Shown here: in pieces, positions 4,123-13,481 of the stretch
How the letters are laid out: each line of letters begins with the position of its first letter
Numbering within the stretch: the stretch's first letter is position 1
Assembly: GCA_023132135.1 (NCBI GenBank)
Contig: JAGLYR010000057.1
Span: forward strand, 1 to 22,936
DNA: 22,936 nucleotides
Reading direction: 5' to 3'
Source: Candidatus Eiseniibacteriota bacterium
GTDB taxonomy: Bacteria > Arandabacterota > Arandabacteria > JAGLYR01
Translations under genes and position numbers: made by a program
Notes under the pieces: model-generated
Seen by the model: only the letters and a program-made list of their open reading frames with translations
Told to the model about the DNA's origin: nothing
Database searches by the model: none

Positions 4123-4198
4123 CATCGGATGCCCAGAGGCTGCTGGGAATCGGCATGCTTTGGGAACCTTTGTGCGCGGTAGGATGTGATAACTTGTC

Positions 4199-4227
4199 GC
4201 GCGGTCTCGCCCGAAGGAAGACCGCGC
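4199..4227 (+). promoter_or_regulatory. Perfect 9-bp hairpin ahead of the first PD40 lipoprotein
   Basis: GCGCGGTCT (4199-4207) and AGACCGCGC (4219-4227) form a perfect 9-bp stem with an 11-base loop. The hairpin lies 77 bases after the subtilase stop and 9 bases before the AAGGGGG ribosome binding site (4237-4243) of the next gene. No T-run follows, so it is not a classical terminator. It could reduce read-through or act as a structured leader. Confidence 0.5.
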
Positions 4228-4251
4228 AGAGAATTGAAGGGGGTAATCAGC

Positions 4252-5316
4252 ATGGTTCCCGATGGCTATGGACCACAGGCGCGACTCGAGCGCCGGGCGG
4301 ACGTCCGCTGTACAGTTGCGGCTGACATGCGCCGCCGCCAGCGGCGCGCAACCGCCTTGCTCATGATGGCGCTCTTCCTGGCGGGTTGCTCGCACCATGA
4401 GACAGCGAACCCCGCGTACTACTATATCGATCCCGACCCCACCTTTCCCTCGGCGCTGGACTATGGCCCTACGTGGTCACCGGATGGTCAGTACATCGCG
4501 TACCATCATCTCACCACTTGCGGAAACCACTACGTGGAGGGGGTGGACGGCACCTACGTCACCTGCGTGGACGGGACCGGCCGGAGGCTGCTTGTGCCCT
4601 ACGGACTCGATCCAGATTGGTCTCCGAGCGGCCATGCAATCGTCTATTCCTGCGGGTCTGGCTCCTGTATCTACGATCTCGTGACAGGGAGCATGAAGGT
4701 CGTGTTTGGATCCTCCGGGATGCACCGGCCCGATTGGTCCCCCGACGGGCAGAAAATCGCTTTCGCAAGGACGGTGTGCTGTCCTTCCGGAATTCACATC
4801 TCCAACCAGGTCACGGGGCAGACAACCTGGCTTGCGCCGGGCTACTCACCAGATTGGTCGCCGGACGGCAGGTACCTCGTTTTTGTCCATGATTGTAATG
4901 TCTGGTCGGTGAGTACCGAAGACTCAACCCGACGGAAGATCACAGCGTACCGCTGTGGGGAACATGCCGTCCAGACCCCACACTGGCACTCTGGCGGTGA
5001 GCGGATCGTCTTCGAGCGAGACTGGAAGATCTGGTGTATTGACGCGGATGGTTCCAACCTGCAACTCCTCGGGGAGGGGCGGTCCCCGGCGTGGTCCCCG
5101 GACGGGGAGACAATCGCCTTTGCGGCGCGCTCTGAGGCCCTGGGCGACACCGTGAAGCAGAGGATCTGGATCATGAACGCCGACGGGAGCCAGCAGCGCC
5201 AAGTCACTTTTCCGGATGCCATGACTTCGGGGTCTGTCCGACAGCCGAATCCGCCGTCGGGCCGACCAGTAATGGCAACTGGGGACTGGTGGCCGGGGTC
5301 TCCCTCGGATCAGTGA
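4252..5316 (+). CDS. PD40/TolB-like beta-propeller lipoprotein, copy 1
   Basis: A predicted lipoprotein of 354 residues. The start at ATG 4252 is chosen because AAGGGGG sits eight bases upstream; a second ATG at 4327 would give a shorter signal peptide but has no such site. An Arg-rich n-region and a hydrophobic stretch (ALLMMALFLAGC) end in a lipobox with Cys46 as the lipidated residue. The mature part has six PD40 blades recognisable by WSPDG-type motifs: TWSPDGQYIAYHH, DWSPSGHAIVYSC, DWSPDGQKIAFAR, DWSPDGRYLVFVH, HWHSGGERIVFER and AWSPDGETIAFAA. Cysteines are unusually frequent (TTCGNHY, YSCGSGSC, TVCCPSG), suggesting disulphides outside the cytoplasm. Such propellers usually bind proteins or glycans; none of the Tol partners is here, so the role is unknown. 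It is a tandem paralogue of the next gene. Confidence 0.85.
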   Translation: MVPDGYGPQARLERRADVRCTVAADMRRRQRRATALLMMALFLAGCSHHETANPAYYYIDPDPTFPSALDYGPTWSPDGQYIAYHHLTTCGNHYVEGVDGTYVTCVDGTGRRLLVPYGLDPDWSPSGHAIVYSCGSGSCIYDLVTGSMKVVFGSSGMHRPDWSPDGQKIAFARTVCCPSGIHISNQVTGQTTWLAPGYSPDWSPDGRYLVFVHDCNVWSVSTEDSTRRKITAYRCGEHAVQTPHWHSGGERIVFERDWKIWCIDADGSNLQLLGEGRSPAWSPDGETIAFAARSEALGDTVKQRIWIMNADGSQQRQVTFPDAMTSGSVRQPNPPSGRPVMATGDWWPGSPSDQ

Positions 5317-5560
5317 GGAGCAGATCCCTCCAATCGATGGCCAGCCGGAACGGTTGTTTCTCCCCTGCAAGTGGATCCTTACCCCTGGTTGACTCACGTC
5401 ATGGGGGTAGGCCGGAAGGACAACCCGTGCTATCCTAGCCATGCGGCATCCCTCGTTCCCGCCTTGGCGGTAGCATTGAACGGTGTCACAGCAACAAGAC
5501 AGCAGGACAAGACCGTTGAGCAGAAGACAGACCAGCAAACCTCGGCAAGGTCGAGAAAGC
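5317..5560. other. Intergenic stretch between the paralogues
   Basis: This 244-base gap contains no convincing gene. TACCCC and GGGGTA arms around 5380-5413 could pair, and TTGACT occurs near 5389 but without a good -10 at proper distance. An open frame from a GTG at 5483 joins the next gene, but it has no ribosome binding site and encodes a basic, non-signal-like stretch. Confidence 0.5.
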
Positions 5561-6556
5561 ATGGGGCGGCACGCGGGAACAATCACGGAAGTATCAAATC
5601 CGAAGGATAGGCCGGTCCTACGGCATAGGGTGTGCTTGTGCGCAGTGTTCCTGTCAGCTTGGCTGGTTTGTGGTTGTTCAGACAGCAAGCAACACAACGA
5701 GCCGATCACAGGGATCGATCCCAGCTGTGAGGGTCATTCGGCCGTCGAGTATGCTCCCGCATGGTCGCCGGATGGAGAGTTTGTCGCCTACAATCACATC
5801 ACCACCTGTGGAACCTACTACGTTGAGGGAGTGGACGGCATCTACGTGATCCGCGCGGACGGTACGGACCGGCGGCTGCTCGTACCTTTCGGCTGGGACC
5901 CCGACTGGTCTCCAGATGGCAGCCAGATTGCTTACTCGTACGGGGCGGCAACCTGCACATATCATCTTGAGACCGATAGTGTCGGTGTCATCTTCTCGAG
6001 TCTGGGCCTGCACTGGCCGGATTGGTCGCCCGATGGAAACAAGATCGCCCTTGCAAGAGTGACGTGCTGTCCGTGGGGAGTGTGTGTCTCGAATCGAATC
6101 ACCAGGATAAAGACCTGGCTTGGACCCGGGCTCGAGCCGGATTGGTCTCCCGACGGTAGCGAACTCGTTTGCTGTTACGCCGGAGTTTGCATCGTAAGCT
6201 CAGACGGGTCAAGCCGTCGCCAGGTCACGAGCAACAATCCTAGGACCCCCACGACACTCAGCCCCCACTGGCGCCCGGACGGCAGCTCCATCATCTTCGA
6301 GCGAGAATGGAAGGTCTGGATCGTCGATACAGATGGATCCAACCTGAGATCCCTCGGAGACGGCCGCAGCCCTGCCTGGTCTCCCGACGGGGAGCTGATC
6401 GTTTTCGCGTGGCACTCGGAGATCGGGGCCGATACCGTCAGCCAGCGGATATGGCTCATGAATGCTGATGGGACAAATCGCCACCAGCTGACCTTCCCAG
6501 ATACAACCAAGACTCTGACCCCGGTGGGACAGCCACCCATTTTCATCAAGTATTAA
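5561..6556 (+). CDS. PD40/TolB-like beta-propeller lipoprotein, copy 2, with a 3' end supplied by a repeat
   Basis: A lipoprotein of 331 residues counted from ATG 5561. The frame is open further upstream to a GTG at 5483, but the later ATG keeps the signal peptide short and has a weak AAGG at 5547-5550. The hydrophobic segment CLCAVFLSAWLVCGC ends in a lipobox. Blades follow the same order as in copy 1 (AWSPDGEFVAYNH, DWSPDGSQIAYSY, DWSPDGNKIALAR, DWSPDGSELVCCY, HWRPDGSSIIFER, AWSPDGELIVFAW), and shared phrases such as TTCGTYYVEGVDGIYV show a tandem duplication. Homology continues to LTFPD; after that the paralogues diverge. The final residues GQPPIFIKY and the TAA are encoded inside the dispersed repeat starting at 6524, so an insertion has replaced the original C-terminus. 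Function is probably as for copy 1, unknown in detail. Confidence 0.85.
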   Translation: MGRHAGTITEVSNPKDRPVLRHRVCLCAVFLSAWLVCGCSDSKQHNEPITGIDPSCEGHSAVEYAPAWSPDGEFVAYNHITTCGTYYVEGVDGIYVIRADGTDRRLLVPFGWDPDWSPDGSQIAYSYGAATCTYHLETDSVGVIFSSLGLHWPDWSPDGNKIALARVTCCPWGVCVSNRITRIKTWLGPGLEPDWSPDGSELVCCYAGVCIVSSDGSSRRQVTSNNPRTPTTLSPHWRPDGSSIIFEREWKVWIVDTDGSNLRSLGDGRSPAWSPDGELIVFAWHSEIGADTVSQRIWLMNADGTNRHQLTFPDTTKTLTPVGQPPIFIKY

Positions 6557-6785: not shown

Positions 6786-7517
6786 TCACAAACCACCAAC
6801 GGGCACATGTCTCCACTCAATGCTTCCAACCCGCCCCGGCAACAGCTTTCGCATCTGGGAGATGGCAATGGCGATCTCCTCCGCGGCCTCCTGGTACTCG
6901 CATGCCACACGTTCACGCAGGATCGGCAGCGAAGGAAGCTTCACTTGGTCCGACATCACAGTGGTGCCGTCCGGCAGGGAATGCGCGAGGCCGCCAGGGC
7001 AAAAAGTAAGTGCCGTCAGGTCTGATCCAGTAGGAATCCCGTAGTGCTATTCAAAGTAAGCTGCTCGTCGCAATGATGTATCGTCCTTCACCGGCTCGAA
7101 CATGGCGATATGAGCGACGGTTTTGTTCCGAAGTGTCCTGAGATCAGCAATTATGCCGCTTGCCGGCCGCACAGTCTTCTGGAAGTTGGGGTCGGGGTAT
7201 GCAAGTTCCCGGGCAGGAGAACAGCAGTACTCCCGGATGCCGCTCAGGCAAGTCCAGCCTGCCAGCGTAAAGATCGTGAATGTGAAGAGGTGGCGCACAA
7301 AGACGAGGTCGAGGCGATCGGGCCCCCGGAGCTCATCCATATCCTTCCCTCTCGCGACCGCGAGCCAATCATCAGCGCAACCATCCCCGATTGCTGCACA
7401 ATCCTCAAGCCTGAGGAGAGCAGTCCCGGGAATATATGAGACTGTGCGATTCGCATCGTCAGTCCTTGAGAATCCGCCTGCCTTCCTGAGAGGTGTGAGG
7501 GCATCAATCAGAGTCAC
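6786..7517 (-). pseudogene. HEPN-like gene interrupted by an in-frame TAG
   Basis: Read on the minus strand, a GTG start at 7517 (GAGG seven bases upstream) gives 156 residues to a TAG at 7047-7049. The same frame then continues uninterrupted for 86 further codons to a TGA at 6786-6788. The downstream part reads as natural protein, from HYGIPTGSDLTALTFCPG to an amphipathic helix (ILRERVACEYQEAAEEIA). The simplest explanation is a CAG-to-TAG nonsense change in a gene of about 242 codons. Residues 127-137 (RTLRNKTVAHI) fit the HEPN RNase motif R-polar-x(3-4)-H. An alternative is that a 56-residue protein restarts at the ATG in GTGATGTCGGACC, but no ribosome binding site is seen. The gene lies downstream of the other decayed defence genes. 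The HEPN assignment rests on one motif and is tentative. Confidence 0.5.
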
Positions 7518-7753: not shown

Positions 7754-8131
7754 TCATTGTCGATCTCCGATGCTAGCACCAAAGGGTCCTCCGGGTGGCT
7801 GGAACAGGCTTTCAATGTGCGACTGGAGATCGATGAACAGGAAACCTAGATTCCTAAGTTCCACCGGGTGATCCTCTCCAAAACCGCAGGTGCAGATGTA
7901 GGTGCCTTGGCGTTTCAGAGCTTCGAGGGCAGGCACTTGATCCGTATCGTCAGACACCAGTACCACGGTTTCACAGATGCGGGCCATCTCGAGCATCTTC
8001 ACGGCAACTGCGACGTCCACACCCTTTTCCTTCTCACTCTTGGCCCTCAGGCAGACCGGATGAACTGTAACAGCGTTTTCACGGCGAAAGCGGTCCAGCA
8101 GGATCCGGAGTTGATTGAAAGGGGCGACTTT
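7754..8131 (-). pseudogene. C-terminal remnant of a NYN/PIN-like nuclease
   Basis: On the minus strand the frame from the edge of the palindromic element at 8132 to the stop at 7754 encodes ~125 residues without a proper start. It reads as the second half of a NYN (LabA/DUF88-like) domain: LRILLDRFRRENAVTVHPVC, then KEKGVDVAVAVKMLEMA with the conserved Asp, then VVLVSDDTDQVPALEALKRQG with the acidic SDD-T-D motif, and a short tail. NYN domains are metal-dependent RNases of the PIN fold. The N-terminal half with the first catalytic Asp is missing, so the protein cannot be complete. An internal GTG at 8020 could still yield an 88-residue fragment. Loss coincides exactly with the inserted element. 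Family assignment is fairly secure; activity is unlikely. Confidence 0.7.
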
Positions 8132-8250
8132 AGGGGACGTAGTTAGCTTTATTAGCTTATTGTGCGTCTTTTCGGCACCATCTGTCCATATCTTGGATCG
8201 GTGGTGCCTGGTGACAGCCCAATAAGCTAATAAAGCTAACTACGTCCCCT
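8132..8250. mobile_element. 119-bp palindromic element with 31-bp perfect inverted repeats
   Basis: The arms 8132-8162 and 8220-8250 are exact reverse complements over 31 bases, beginning AGGGGACGTAG and ending CTACGTCCCCT. The 57-base centre contains a second nested pair, GGCACCA (8174-8180) and TGGTGCC (8202-8208). It carries no gene. It is flanked by gene fragments from two different families, a NYN nuclease on one side and an ATPase on the other. Its form fits a MITE or a RAYT-type palindromic unit; which family is inferred only. Confidence 0.85.
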
Positions 8251-8391
8251 CCCCCTCCCCTCTCCCTCCCCGAAGGACAACTTCCCGGAACCATTATCTC
8301 CGTAGACGACCATCGACTTGCAGTCCGGTTTGAGCGAAACCGGATCGGCGGCTCCGCGAAACCAAGACAGCTGGATAGCTTTGATCCTCAT
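8236..8391 (-). pseudogene. SMC/RecF-like ATPase, 5' fragment ending after Walker A
   Basis: The ATG at 8391 overlaps the stop of the preceding 70-residue gene (ATGA), a sign of translational coupling. It encodes MRIKAIQLSWFRGAADPVSL and then SMVVYGDNGSGKLSF, the typical N-terminus of AAA_23/RecF/SMC-type ATPases whose Walker A is usually GxNGxGKSS(F/L). After this the frame runs through a G-rich tract (GEGEGRGRGRS) and stops at 8236 inside the palindromic element. Only 51 codons remain of a protein normally many hundreds of residues long; the Walker A Ser/Thr is also changed to Leu. It is therefore dead. Its former partners are the intact upstream 70-residue and HEPN-like genes. Confidence 0.75.
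8246..8271. repeat. Pyrimidine-rich tract (G-rich on the minus strand)
   Basis: A 26-base run of C and T with several CCCC and CCC blocks directly beside the palindromic element, at the point where ATPase homology ends. The minus strand has at least four G-runs and could form a G-quadruplex. Such a tract may mark a recombination or replication-slippage breakpoint. Confidence 0.55.
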
Positions 8392-8600
8392 TGCTTCGTC
8401 TCCAACTTGGGCGGGGGAGGGACCATGTCAGAAATAAGCGCCGCCGCAACGCTTGTGAGCTCTGTCGGGCGGAGCTGCCGCTCGCTGAGTTGCCCGTTCA
8501 GCAGCTCCTCGATCCGGGCAGAAACTGCCTCGGTTACAGAGGCATGAAGCTTCCGGGCTTCCGTTATTCGGGCTGCGGCCCAGTGCGCGTCATTCGACAT
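8388..8600 (-). CDS. 70-residue protein coupled to the truncated ATPase
   Basis: The ATG at 8600 has GGAG seven to eight bases upstream, so I prefer it over the longer frame that begins at 8666. The product, starting MSNDAHWAAARITEARKLHA, is mostly alpha-helical by composition, with an Ala/Glu/Leu-rich central stretch (VTEAVSARIEELLNGQLSER) and a Pro-rich tail (VPPPPKLETKQ). It has no signal peptide, membrane segment or recognisable catalytic motif. Its stop overlaps the ATPase ATG by four bases, and an HEPN-like gene precedes it by 145 bases. That layout suggests a small accessory or regulatory subunit of an ATPase complex. I do not recognise a family; the gene itself appears intact. Confidence 0.65.
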   Translation of the reverse strand: MSNDAHWAAARITEARKLHASVTEAVSARIEELLNGQLSERQLRPTELTSVAAALISDMVPPPPKLETKQ

Positions 8601-8745
8601 TCTGGGTCTCCATGGGAAAGATATCGACGCGTCGGGCACGACTCGACATGTCATCGCGCCACGCAACGACGTGTTTCGACATCAGCTTGTTCGCCGCGGC
8701 TGAGCCGCACCGGCGGAAGTGGTAATTTTGCATCCTGATAGTCAC

Positions 8746-9486
8746 CTATTCACTTCTCAAGAGGAAAGATCTACACTGCTTGCGATAGTGTGCCAGCCCC
8801 TCGGCAGCCACAATTCGCGCGGCTTTCGCTAAATTCCGCAGTTCCTCCGCCGCATCGCTCATGTCCCCCGCAGTGCCCTCGTCAACCGTGGCCGCAAGTT
8901 GACGCAGTCTGTGGGCTTTGGCCTCCACTGTCCCGTCGGGAATCCAGCCGACAATCGCAAGGACACTCTCCCTGAACTCAGAGCGCTGCTCCGGAGTCCC
9001 CGGGAAATCGTTGACGTATGACCAATAGTAACGAACGAACTCGCTATGCAGATAGTGTACCCAGAACACCGACCGTTCGGATTCTTCGAGGAGCTGCATG
9101 AACTTGGGCACGATCAGGTTCGGTTGATAGTGAAACACGCTGTTCCGGTATCGGCGGAGCATGCCAACAAGGTCCGACTGCCGAACCAGCGACTGATCAA
9201 TGATTGGGTCGTGCAGATCGGCCTCCCGCCATCCATCAAGGACGACGTACTCGGAGGCATACCACTGCGACAAGAGCGCAAAGAAATGCCACCAGTCCTG
9301 CCATTCCTCTTTCAGACGCGATCCGCCCGCGTAGTGGTCCAAGTGCCGGCGCGCGAGATCGGCCCAGAACAGATGCCTGGCCCAGGCGAGAATTGTCTCC
9401 TGTTTCTCAAGCGTCCACATGTCTCGCATCAGCCGCCGAACTACTGGCAAAAGGTCCGAGAGGCAGCGCGCTCGGCGTGCTATCAC
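8746..9486 (-). CDS. HEPN-like protein of a defence-type operon
   Basis: Up to 246 residues from the GTG at 9486, which has GAGGG six bases upstream; ATGs at 9429 and 9420 (the latter giving MWTLEKQETILAWARHLF) are also plausible and look more natural as protein starts. The sequence is helical and rich in Trp and Tyr. Around residues 110-121 it reads LRRYRNSVFHYQ, matching the HEPN RNase motif R-N-x3-H (Arg114, His119). HEPN proteins are RNases or RNA-binding toxins frequent in abortive-infection systems. The helix arrangement before the motif (QDWWHFFALLSQWYASEYVVLDGW) suits the two-helix HEPN core. It precedes the 70-residue gene and the broken ATPase on the same strand, so it may be the effector of that module. 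The assignment rests on motif and context, not on a full family match. Confidence 0.65.
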   Translation of the reverse strand: MIARRARCLSDLLPVVRRLMRDMWTLEKQETILAWARHLFWADLARRHLDHYAGGSRLKEEWQDWWHFFALLSQWYASEYVVLDGWREADLHDPIIDQSLVRQSDLVGMLRRYRNSVFHYQPNLIVPKFMQLLEESERSVFWVHYLHSEFVRYYWSYVNDFPGTPEQRSEFRESVLAIVGWIPDGTVEAKAHRLRQLAATVDEGTAGDMSDAAEELRNLAKAARIVAAEGLAHYRKQCRSFLLRSE

Positions 9487-9786
9487 TCGTCGCCCTCAAT
9501 GCCGTTGTTGGCTTTCTCCCTTTCAATCACGCGGCTTCCCAGTAACAGGATACACATTCTTCGGTATCCAGAGTTGGCGATACCGGATTCCCGCCATCGC
9601 GGCCCCGCAGTCACCTCGTAGCTGATTTCCTCAGCCCTTCCACACGCTCTCCAGCTTCAACTCCAATAACTTCTCCAGAATCTCCTCATTCGTCATGTCT
9701 GGCAACCATGTGTACTATGGGCACATGTCACCACCTGTGCCAGCGGTCGATGGTCCGACTTGGAGAGTGACCCGCGCCGTTCACCC
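9487..9786. other. Gap downstream of the RM gene; repeat-like, no firm gene
   Basis: On the minus strand a 21-codon frame (MTNEEILEKLLELKLESVWK, stop about 9630) resembles the start of IstB-type ATPases (pattern LEKL-x-x-LKL) but ends at once, so it could be an IS21 scrap or a chance peptide. Next to it, 9555-9605 (GGTATCCAGAG, then GGATTCCCGCCATCGCGG) resembles common dispersed intergenic palindromes. No full gene is supported. Confidence 0.35.
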
Positions 9787-12700
9787 CTACCCCTCCCCCT
9801 CCACAATCCTGATTTCCTCATCCGTAAGCCCGTAGAGTTCATAGACGAGCTGGTCGATTTGCTTGTCGGTGGCGTCGATCTTGCGCTCGCGGGCCGCTTT
9901 CGCGGCTGGAGCTGAGTTCCCAGCTGACGATTCATGAAGATCCAGCATCCTGCGAACCAGCGACACCAACCTGTCGTGGAGTTCCTGGTCCTTTCGGCTC
10001 GTCGGATCCGGCAACATGAGAGGTAGTCGCTCAATGTACTGGCGACTGTATGCGTAGTAGCCACCTCGAAACCGGCTGCTTATACATTTCAGGTAGTAGT
10101 CGACCAACCGTGAATTGAGCAACCCAAGCACGTACTCATACCCCACAGCACATCCGCTCTTCAGTATGATACCGTATCCACCTCCACCCCCTCCCCCCGA
10201 ACCAACAAAATACGCTTTGCCCTCGGCGTCAAGAGCATAGCATGCACCCGCAGCTATCGAAGGGACGAGGATCTTGCGCTTTGAGAACAGCGTGACACTC
10301 TTGGGATATACGTAGCCATACCACCCCGAATGCTTCATCTTTCCCCGTTCTCTGCCTCGCAACGTTTCTCGGTTTTCAAGCAAGTACTCCCATGCCAACG
10401 GGAATTTCTTCTGATACGCACTGGGAGGAATTAAGGTGACCTTCCCTGTTTTGGTTGTGGCAACCGGGTCGTAGGGAAAGAGGATTCGCTTCGAGGGACC
10501 AGCGGAGTACCGGCGAATGTCAAGCGATCCCTTGCATAGAGGCGGGACTGCCTCGGATTCAAGGAGATGTTCCTTGCCGGTAGCCTTCGAGGCGACTCTA
10601 ATGCGGCCTCGGCTTTCTAGTCCGAGAGGTTCCAAGATGTAGACGGGATCACTACTCGTTACGAGACCTTGGAATACATGCTCTGCGATATCGGCAAGCC
10701 TCGTGGGCGCCTTCCCAAGTCTGTGGAAGATCTCCGCTCCCTTCCCCACGACGAAGTTCCACTCGCTCTCATCGACCGACTTCAAAGGAACGTCGCCCGC
10801 TGTCGCCCTCCCGGTTGCTCTCCACTGACCTAGGTCATCGACTCTGAAAAACTGACAGTTTTGGCCAGGAGTCTTTGCCAGAAACAGCAGGCAAGTGTAC
10901 GTCGACGCACCTGCAAACACCTGTTGATCTCCGAAATGCACCACCTCTGCCAGATGCTGGCCCTTAGAGATCATTGAACGCAGAGCACCGCCGTACTTCG
11001 CAGTGAAGAACTTGTGGGGCAGGATCATCCCAAAACAACCCTGCTTATTCAATAGGGCTAGACCGCGCTCAACAAAAACGACATAGATGTCATAGTTACC
11101 CTTGGCCGCCGAGAGGTAACCTTCCTTGTAGAGATCAACCTCAACCGGAGCCCACTCTCTCATTGTCTGTATCCTGATATACGGCGGATTGCCAATGACC
11201 GCGTCAAACCCACCGCGCTTCATGATGTCCGCGAACTCTCTCTTCCAATCGAAGGGATTGATTCGCTTCCACTCTTCGTCGGTGATGAGGCCGAGGTCCC
11301 CCTGTTTCTGGAAATCGGGCTCGATGAGGGAGTTTCCGCACTTGATGTTGTTCCCAAGGTCCGGAAGAGCCCGCTCGCGCCAGAGGGCGAGCTGGCGCTG
11401 GAGGGTGTCCTGGTTCTCACCTTCGAGAACTTTAAGTAGAAGGCTGAGCTTCGTGACCTCGACGGCCTGGGAATCGATGTCTACGCCGTAGATGTTCGCC
11501 AGGAGGATTCGCTTCTTCTCCTTCGTCGTGAGCAACCACTGTCCTCCGGGCCCCTGATAGATCGGCATCTGAGGCTTCGGTCCGGGGACCATGGCGCGGA
11601 GATTCTTCGCCGGGATCTTGCCCTTGGCGTCGATGGTGCTGAGCAGATTCTTCTGGTACCAGTCCCGGTGGAAGTCGAGGAGCCACTGGTAGGCGCCGAG
11701 GAGGAAGGACCCCGATCCGCAGGCAGGATCGAGAATGCGAAGATCAGTAATCTCCTTGGGTGTCTTGCCCTCGCAGAGCTTGCCGACGGTGTGCTTGACG
11801 ATGTAATCGACGATGTAGGTCGGCGTGTAGTAGACGCCGCCCGCTTTCCTGACCTCGGGCTTCTCCTCCACTTTCGCCTGATGGGAGGGAGTCAGCCGAA
11901 TGACCTTCCCCAGGAACTGTTCATAGACATGGCCCAGGATATCCGCGCCGAGCACCGAGAACTCATAAGGGCACTCCGGATAGTAGAGCCCCTTGAAGAT
12001 CGTCTTCAGAACCTTGTCATCCACCTTCACCTTCGGGGTGAACTCATCCCGCCTGAAATCGAAGAGCCCCGAGTTGTACTTGTCGTCTGCAGCGTGGAAG
12101 ATCTCGAACAGTCTCTTGTACGTCCTGACTCCGTTCAGGAGCGCTTGAAGCCGGCCGTAGTCCTCGATCCCCCGATCCTCGCACATCCGGAGGAAGATGA
12201 TCCGATCGATGGTCCTCTGGACGGCGAAGTTGAGTTCTTCCAGGGTGAGCCGTGGATTTCGGAGCGCCATGTTCCGGGCAAGGGCGACCCGCCAGCTCTC
12301 GATTTCCTTGAGAAACTCCGCGTCGACCTCTTGCGTGCCGCGCTTCCGGCCTTTCTCCGCGTACTTGTCGAAGGAGCCTTGAAGGACGGCCGCCTTGCCG
12401 AAAACCTCGGCGATCTCGTCCAGACGATCGGGGTATTCGTTGTAGGTGATGTACTGAATTCGGCCGGTGCTGACCTTATCCCTGAGTTTGGGTCGGACCC
12501 GGCAGTCGTAGACAGCGAACTCCTCGAAGTCGCTCAAGATGGAGAGAGGAAGCTTGGCGCTCCACCCATAGCGGCGCAATTGATAGGCCGCGCTCGGCTC
12601 GTCCTTCACGCTCACGGAGGGTTTCTTCGCTTCAAGGAAGAACTTGCGGACGCCACCGACGCGGAAGCAGTAGTCCGGGGCCTTCGTAGCTCCCCCGATT

Positions 12701-12906
12701 TTGATGGCGTCCTCGTGCACGACCTCCTTGTACTGCTCCGCCCAGCCTTGCCGGTTGTAGAGATCCCAGCCAAGCGCCTCGAAGAACGGATCGATGAACT
12801 CCCGCCGGAGGGATGCTTCCTTGTAGCCGGGTCGCTTGTACGCCTCCAGGTTCCGGTCGAACCGCTCGACCAGCTCCTCGATCTTCGCCCGGGTGTCTTC
12901 CGCCAT
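9787..12906 (-). CDS. Type IIG-like restriction-modification enzyme (fused nuclease, N6-adenine methyltransferase and specificity domain)
   Basis: A single chain of 1039 residues from ATG 12906, preceded by GGGGGA five bases upstream; the longer frame from 13017 overlaps the Yip1 gene and lacks support. Order of parts: an N-terminal PD-ExK nuclease (Pro77-Asp78 in APDYCF, Glu92 and Lys94 in FLEAKK), a helical linker (~200-360), an Eco57I-like adenine-N6 methyltransferase with motif I DPACGSGSF (~391-400) and motif IV NPPY (~572), and a C-terminal TaqI-type target-recognition region with repeated hydrophobic strands (LLNSRLVDYYLKCIS, YIERLPLMLP). Size and order match type IIG/IIL enzymes that need no partner genes. 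A run of eight glycines (VGSGGGGGGGYG region, ~10170-10200) is unusual but lies in a loop-like region. All key residues are present, so it should be functional. It probably methylates adenine and cuts unmethylated foreign DNA. The recognition site cannot be read. Confidence 0.93.
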   Translation of the reverse strand: MAEDTRAKIEELVERFDRNLEAYKRPGYKEASLRREFIDPFFEALGWDLYNRQGWAEQYKEVVHEDAIKIGGATKAPDYCFRVGGVRKFFLEAKKPSVSVKDEPSAAYQLRRYGWSAKLPLSILSDFEEFAVYDCRVRPKLRDKVSTGRIQYITYNEYPDRLDEIAEVFGKAAVLQGSFDKYAEKGRKRGTQEVDAEFLKEIESWRVALARNMALRNPRLTLEELNFAVQRTIDRIIFLRMCEDRGIEDYGRLQALLNGVRTYKRLFEIFHAADDKYNSGLFDFRRDEFTPKVKVDDKVLKTIFKGLYYPECPYEFSVLGADILGHVYEQFLGKVIRLTPSHQAKVEEKPEVRKAGGVYYTPTYIVDYIVKHTVGKLCEGKTPKEITDLRILDPACGSGSFLLGAYQWLLDFHRDWYQKNLLSTIDAKGKIPAKNLRAMVPGPKPQMPIYQGPGGQWLLTTKEKKRILLANIYGVDIDSQAVEVTKLSLLLKVLEGENQDTLQRQLALWRERALPDLGNNIKCGNSLIEPDFQKQGDLGLITDEEWKRINPFDWKREFADIMKRGGFDAVIGNPPYIRIQTMREWAPVEVDLYKEGYLSAAKGNYDIYVVFVERGLALLNKQGCFGMILPHKFFTAKYGGALRSMISKGQHLAEVVHFGDQQVFAGASTYTCLLFLAKTPGQNCQFFRVDDLGQWRATGRATAGDVPLKSVDESEWNFVVGKGAEIFHRLGKAPTRLADIAEHVFQGLVTSSDPVYILEPLGLESRGRIRVASKATGKEHLLESEAVPPLCKGSLDIRRYSAGPSKRILFPYDPVATTKTGKVTLIPPSAYQKKFPLAWEYLLENRETLRGRERGKMKHSGWYGYVYPKSVTLFSKRKILVPSIAAGACYALDAEGKAYFVGSGGGGGGGYGIILKSGCAVGYEYVLGLLNSRLVDYYLKCISSRFRGGYYAYSRQYIERLPLMLPDPTSRKDQELHDRLVSLVRRMLDLHESSAGNSAPAAKAARERKIDATDKQIDQLVYELYGLTDEEIRIVEGEG

Positions 12907-12956
12907 GCTGTCCCCCGATCCCCCTTGCCGCCGCACGCTCCTCACCTCTTCTCCAG

Positions 12957-13481
12957 CTACACCCCCCGCCCCAACAGTGCGAACATCAAACCGAAGATGA
13001 GCGCCTGGACAACCCATCCAATGACACAGACTCCCACCGCGCGGAGTGTGCTGGTGTAGTCCAGGGCCTGCCGCACGGCAATCACCATGGCGGCCAGCAT
13101 CCAGACCGAGGCCAAGAAGAAGACGATTCCTCCCAAAAGCGGAATAATGCCCAGGATACGAATCATCCCAGGAGCGCTGGCAAAACCTATGGTGCGCAGC
13201 AGTTCCCCGTGATCCGCACGGGTTTGCGGCTCCGGCAAGAGCCTGGTCCCGATGACGTAGGTCAGATACGCCCAGACATACCAGCTGATGAGAGCGGTGA
13301 TGGTTCCGACAACCATGCCTCCGAAACCCCGTCCTCCGATCGTTGCCACCCCGGCGGCGAGGCTGGACAGTACTACCACGAGCATCGCCTGGCCGAGGGC
13401 GGACTTGTCCGCCTCGACTTCCTCGTATACACCGACATCCAGCTTGGCCGCTCGAATCACGCGATCTTTGAAATCACTCAT
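12957..13481 (-). CDS. Yip1-family integral membrane protein
   Basis: A protein of 174 residues starting at ATG 13481, where GGAGGGGG lies immediately upstream; the longer frame to 13574 has no site. The N-terminus (MSDFKDRVIRAAKLDVGVYE) is cytosolic, followed by about five hydrophobic segments: AMLVVVLSSLAAGVATIG, GMVVGTITALISWYVWAYL, MIRILGIIPLLGGIVFFLAS, WMLAAMVIAVRQAL and VGVCVIGWVVQALIFGLMFALL. The sequence WYVWAYLTYVIGTRL and the following AxGxFA-like stretch (GFASAPGMIRILG) are typical of bacterial Yip1/YIP1-like domains. Their biochemical role in bacteria is not established. The stop lies 50 bases before the RM start on the same strand, so the two may share a transcript, but no functional link is evident. 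Confidence 0.8.
   Translation of the reverse strand: MSDFKDRVIRAAKLDVGVYEEVEADKSALGQAMLVVVLSSLAAGVATIGGRGFGGMVVGTITALISWYVWAYLTYVIGTRLLPEPQTRADHGELLRTIGFASAPGMIRILGIIPLLGGIVFFLASVWMLAAMVIAVRQALDYTSTLRAVGVCVIGWVVQALIFGLMFALLGRGV

Follow-up and report, generated by a model that had tools for sequence, protein, structure and literature searches.

The tempting three-gene operon of the window (the whole stretch of 22,936 nucleotides analysed here) is probably made of two independent defence modules that adjoin, one intact and one dead. The first-pass annotation had read an HEPN-like protein, a 70-residue protein and a broken SMC-like ATPase as one possible undescribed defence module. This reading held in part: the small protein and the ATPase form a pair that recurs in other genomes, often among defence genes, while the HEPN-like gene was no fixed third member.

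The order and coordinates of the three minus-strand open reading frames (HEPN-like protein, small protein, ATPase start) were found in the ORF list as initially placed. The type IIG restriction-modification (RM) neighbour was confirmed (887.7 bits in PADLOC) upstream of the HEPN-like gene and on the same strand. The span first delimited (8236-9486) stops short of the repeat (8132-8250) and of the NYN gene truncated beyond the break (to 7754). The features are, in the order of transcription:

9787-13017, minus strand: type IIG RM enzyme (PADLOC REase_MTase_IIG, E 2.7e-267; PF07669, HSDR_N, TaqI_C)
8746-9486, minus strand: HEPN-like protein, ORF of 246 aa with GTG start and RN-x3-H motif (RYRNSVFHYQ); intact
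8388-8600, minus strand: small helical protein, ATPase partner, 70 aa (leave-out HMM, E 3.6e-18); intact ORF
8272-8391, minus strand: ATPase 5' remnant, codons 1-40 of a Rad50-like gene of ~785 codons (WFRGAADP..., Walker A GDNGSGKL)
8132-8250, no strand: palindromic repeat of 119 nt, with 34-nt arms 97% complementary
7754-8125, minus strand: 3' part of a NYN-domain (PIN-like) gene (PF01936, E 1.5e-9; the alignment opens at profile position 54 of 145)

The coupling first attributed to the 70-residue gene was found on one side only: the ATPase start (8391) overlaps the stop of the small gene by 4 nt (ATGA, 8388-8391), whereas 145 nt separate the small gene from the stop of the HEPN-like gene. 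Other reading frames were also observed in the window. A short one (9632-9697, minus strand, MTNEEILEKLLELKLESVWKG) lies between the RM and HEPN-like genes; we take it to resemble the N-terminus of IS21 IstB proteins, and it is possibly an insertion-sequence remnant. Beyond the NYN remnant, an ORF of 156 aa (7047-7517, minus strand) without any family match carries RNKTVAH (R-N-x4-H) and, from this motif, is possibly another, unrelated HEPN-like protein. Two adjoining ORFs on the plus strand (4186-6556) contain regularly spaced repeats coding for PDWSPDG (PD40-like beta-propeller repeats).

The 70-residue protein is a member of a conserved family: a profile made from 13 small proteins, from which the window copy was left out, matched 8388-8600 and nothing else in the window, and the best pairwise match of the window protein reached 41% over 59 residues (Acidobacteria). 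The small protein had no significant match in Pfam, NCBIfam, PADLOC 2023 or PHROGs, and neither this protein nor the truncated ATPase, used as single sequence or in a small alignment, gave any pattern match in viral contigs. A DNA pattern for the ATPase N-terminus (WFRGA...GxNG[ST]GK), run as search handle over 84,980 genomes, detected 14 places, of which 13 encoded real ATPases; the remaining one (L042) was rejected, not being a real ATPase. The 13 hosts belonged to Acidobacteria, Nitrospirales, Phycisphaeraceae, Microvirga, Roseomonas, Desulfobacteraceae, Dehalococcoidia, Eisenbacteria, Patescibacteria, Bathyarchaeota and one unclassified bacterium. In all 13 intact loci, an ORF of 65-84 residues (homologue or counterpart of the small protein) ended at or beside the ATPase start. 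The pair (core family hereafter) is widespread across bacteria and archaea, and at the same time sparse, with about 1 copy per 300-400 genomes in phyla chosen for holding one. No further core copies were obtained at E 1e-20, beyond the seed genomes, in 294 Planctomycetota, 347 Acidobacteriota, 295 Nitrospirota and 398 Pseudomonadota genomes.

Intact core ATPases encompassed ~780-785 residues, with a WFRGAA N-terminus, a CPACG hook, the signature LTLSEGYRNSLGL, the Walker B LDDVV and, at the C-terminus, a region of ~175 residues; their sequences matched SMC_N, AAA_13 (PF13166), AAA_15 and Rad50. A HEPN fold is predicted for the C-terminal domain. The model of this region displayed a pLDDT of 80, and HEPN domains were ranked first by structural comparison (1o3u with Z 8.7, sacsin, MntA-HepT and Csm6), with middling Z; Foldseek alone gave no significant match for this domain. 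Its motif, approximately [GA]-N-x-x-S-H, showed an invariant His and no Arg of Rx4-6H in the eight aligned domains, and HEPN variants without this Arg occur in some families (PMC3710099). The C-terminus ends in a CxxC...CxC zinc ribbon.

A sister ATPase family was represented by nine copies (about 78-102 bits) in the phylum surveys and a tenth in a seed genome. Eight of these 10 places displayed the order GIY-YIG-like protein (~155 aa), small protein (57-70 aa) and ATPase, one place being divergent and one lacking it; the GIY-YIG assignment comes from weak Pfam scores and visible motifs. Sister ATPases from L087-L095 (~806 aa) shared with the core family the same C-terminal region, with N-x3-H and zinc ribbon. 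No named system was returned by PADLOC for core or sister loci, LmuB being the best ATPase match. A design with effector, small protein and ATPase does exist in the sister family, but without the HEPN-like protein of the window, and the sister set (L087-L095) is a better candidate than the window for an undescribed three-gene system. It can tentatively be proposed, as a possibility still rather doubtful, that core and sister families together make up a class of hook-ATPase defence systems not yet described. In such a class, an adaptor of ~60-80 residues would link a DNA-sensing ATPase to interchangeable nucleases, and the remains in the window would belong to a decayed member, with the adjoining HEPN-like protein perhaps as its former effector.

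When the small proteins were compared by hhalign, the core, sister and Bacteroidota families showed no link (probability under 2%); homology among them is therefore not claimed, and the agreement is limited to place and size. On Hymenobacter and Fibrella plasmids (L030, L032 and L036), a protein of 79-81 aa overlaps an ATPase of ~790 aa, whose C-terminal region carries RNEVGAHF, the His being preceded by an Arg that is missing from the core family. On pHTIA of Halorhabdus tiamatea (L035, 4805-7469), a 68-aa protein overlaps a Rad50-like ATPase of 822 aa, between pglX and pglZ of a BREX-5 locus.

The RN-x3-H motif announced for the HEPN-like protein is indeed present in the window, as RNSVFH, and alignment with relatives places the true start of the gene probably at the ATG at 9429 or 9420. 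The protein had no significant match in Pfam, NCBIfam, PADLOC 2023 or PHROGs, and pattern scans with the single sequence or a small alignment gave no match in viral contigs or genome contigs. One weak match, on a Gemmatirosa plasmid (L002), was obtained by tblastn against plasmids and phages, and a two-sequence profile (window and Gemmatirosa) then recovered four clear relatives (L103-L106) and one marginal match from 396 Acidobacteriota genomes. The profile of five relatives, window copy left out, matched the window protein with E 2e-32. The HEPN superfamily is defined by Rx4-6H with a polar residue after the R (PMC3710099); R[N/H]x3H was kept in all six family members, the window protein included, within a conserved block (LRRYRNSVFHYQ in the window), and a C-terminal extension was common to three of the six. 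The single-sequence model was all-helical but unusable (pLDDT 41), so the fold is assigned from motif and helix content. By analogy, the protein is most likely a metal-independent RNase. RM genes were found near three of the six family members: in the window, in L103, where a DNA methylase gene (PF01555) immediately precedes the HEPN-like gene, and in L104, where an MmeI-like enzyme is encoded four genes away. On the Gemmatirosa plasmid, the relative is part of a series of short ORFs; the recurring repeats on their flanks (coding for NESLQL and LEFSCEGAG) resemble integron attC sites.

The HEPN-like gene and the pair were apart in every other place examined, which argues against the HEPN-like protein as third member. 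No relative of the HEPN-like family was found at E<=1e-3 in the 13 pair-bearing genomes, the leave-window-out profile matched at no pair locus, and the gene was absent from all 23 small/ATPase places outside the window. The small protein was absent from the four other HEPN-like neighbourhoods scanned (L103-L106), that of Gemmatirosa being covered by ORF listing alone. Because the HEPN-like gene occurs in 0 of 23 pair places and the small protein in 0 of four HEPN-like places, HEPN/small/ATPase is not a recurring module; since both families occur separately elsewhere, the HEPN-like gene and the pair are best seen as separate modules adjoining here. The first-pass annotation had named small-protein homologues without HEPN neighbours as evidence against the module, and this is what was observed as far as the upstream HEPN-like gene is concerned. 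Intact versions, which according to that annotation had to be sought elsewhere, were found as 13 small/ATPase loci, none with this HEPN-like gene.

A true three-gene system, in which the HEPN-like RNase would be the effector upstream of the small protein as GIY-YIG is in the sister family and LmuA in Lamassu, appears unlikely. Strand and order are the same as in the eight GIY-YIG sister loci and in LmuA-LmuC-LmuB (PMC10586767), and some core loci have other genes in the place before the small gene (a Mrr_cat gene directly upstream of the pair in L045, a CoiA nuclease gene in L079). However, the HEPN-like gene is uncoupled, with its gap of 145 nt, and its family is found near RM genes in three of six places, is absent from all other pair loci, and was without the pair in the other family places scanned. 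In core loci, the gene upstream of the small gene varies and lies on the opposite strand in five of 10, and therefore the pair stands alone.

It was judged improbable that the pair represents a divergent form of Lamassu (ABC-3C) in which the small protein would be LmuC and the ATPase LmuB, although each of the five intact ATPases tested had a LmuB model (PDLC03859 or PDLC03865) as its best match in PADLOC (E 1e-21 to 1e-30). As in Lamassu (PMC10586767), the ATPase has a CPxCG zinc hook and is SMC/Rad50-like, and the gene of the small protein lies directly upstream of it. The core ATPase is nonetheless longer (~785 aa vs ~650 for LmuB), with two extra C-terminal domains, the predicted HEPN fold and the zinc ribbon. 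Its second Walker-B acid is D, with LDD(V/I)V in all six aligned relatives (the window copy is without this part), and not the Q that usually replaces Glu in LmuB (PMC10586767). The small protein has no recognisable relationship to LmuC and matches no family in Pfam, NCBIfam or PADLOC; the core family is also without conserved LmuA effector, no LmuA-like gene being upstream in the five of 10 loci with an opposite-strand gene.

As the first-pass annotation held, the ATPase of the window is broken. Its 40 authentic codons read MRIKAIQLSWFRGAADPVSLKPDCKSMVVYGDNGSGKLSF and are followed by G-rich DNA and the palindrome, the ORF staying open in non-homologous DNA as far as 8236. Directly behind GSGK (GTGK in one), 12 of 12 relatives carry S (S38), and the window copy carries L. 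When a profile of six intact ATPases was searched against the whole 3.4-Mb genome, the window fragment was the sole match (model residues 1-42, E 7e-15), and the remaining ~745 codons were found in no other contig of the assembly. The ATPase remnant stops at the repeat, beyond which lies the NYN remnant, a gene whose 5' part is missing at the repeat. Ends related to this repeat occur at about 27 listed places of the genome. In two other copies (L006, L008), such ends stand opposite each other with 210-260 nt between them, which suggests a MITE-like element with GGGACGTAGTTAGC ends, the window copy being a short form.

The simplest reading is that the ATPase gene decayed, everything after codon 40 being lost together with the front of the NYN gene, and the small/ATPase system cannot work in the window. 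Since the assembly is fragmented (345 contigs, 96% complete) and the break is located at a repeat with many copies, a wrong join keeps some small probability: the gene would be unbroken in the organism, the contig misjoined at the palindrome and the rest of the gene unassembled. This is quite improbable, as no other contig carries the remaining codons and the part that was kept is already altered at the invariant Walker-A serine.

Neighbouring genes, taken as raw counts without background rate, suggest that the intact small/ATPase pair is a defence system. In L077 the neighbours include genes for an OLD nuclease and a type I RM system; L086 has a Gabija-like pair of OLD and UvrD together with a type I R gene, L084 has NYN and Mrr_cat genes, and the Mrr_cat gene of L045 also counts among these defence neighbours. 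Genes of AbiV-type HEPN proteins were located downstream of two of the 13 intact pairs (L078, L081). A DNA-repair or housekeeping set of the SbcC/Rad50 kind without defence role has little probability: Rad50/SbcC profiles were among the good matches, but the distribution is very sparse and scattered, several neighbours belong to defence islands, and no SbcD-like nuclease was recognised beside the pair.

With two adjoining modules as the preferred reading, the following functioning can be proposed. The intact module would comprise the type IIG RM enzyme, then the single-gene HEPN-family protein, a putative latent RNase that would be released when restriction fails and serve as a second line of defence. 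This role is put forward by analogy with RM-linked HEPN proteins, proposed as back-up to restriction (PMC3710099), and with PrrC, which is kept silent by the type I RM enzyme linked to it (PMC2610378). The module that is dead here would comprise the ~70-aa helical protein, translationally coupled to a Rad50/LmuB/RloC-type ABC ATPase of ~780 aa. The architecture of the intact ATPase suggests that it probably acts as a sensor of DNA that is foreign or damaged; through the small protein, a putative adaptor, it would then switch on its own predicted HEPN-like domain or a separate effector, which in the sister family would be the separately encoded GIY-YIG protein. In the window, the ATPase gene would have been mutated in Walker A and cut after codon 40 at the repeat, with loss of ~745 codons and of the 5' part of the NYN gene.

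Should the pair prove to be a defence system, it would extend the Rad50/Lamassu/RloC theme by a compact version present in both bacteria and archaea, in which the ATPase has a predicted HEPN-fold domain and a coupled helper protein of ~70 residues. The small/ATPase family and its GIY-YIG sister are worth following, rather than the HEPN/small/ATPase set itself, and the sister GIY-YIG/small/ATPase operons offer an intact, directly testable three-gene set.

The closest named relatives of the pair are LmuB of Lamassu and RloC. Apparently no named system fits, in line with the first-pass annotation, which could match the three-gene order to none; an earlier description is possible, most likely in the classification of ABC ATPases (Krishnan et al. 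2020). As in RloC and PrrC, the core ATPase matches PF13166 (AAA_13) and unites in one chain a hook ABC ATPase and a C-terminal HEPN fold, here predicted. Unlike RloC, its C-terminal domain lost the Arg of Rx4-6H (N-x3-H being mostly kept) and is followed by an extra zinc ribbon, and a small partner gene is present in every intact locus examined, whereas RloC is described as a single protein (PMC2610378). The Dnd/CxC systems with an ABC ATPase and DndE also combine a DndD-like hook ATPase with small partners and variable nucleases (PMC10853773), but no Dnd genes were recognised near the pair, this comparison being made by description. The HEPN-like family of the window resembles the RM-linked HEPN RNases (surveyed in PMC3710099) in its R-N/H-x3-H motif and its nearness to RM genes. 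It differs from them in matching no curated HEPN family and in having its own core, VVxxGWxELxLxDxxID...LRRYRNxxFHYQ, with a C-terminal extension.
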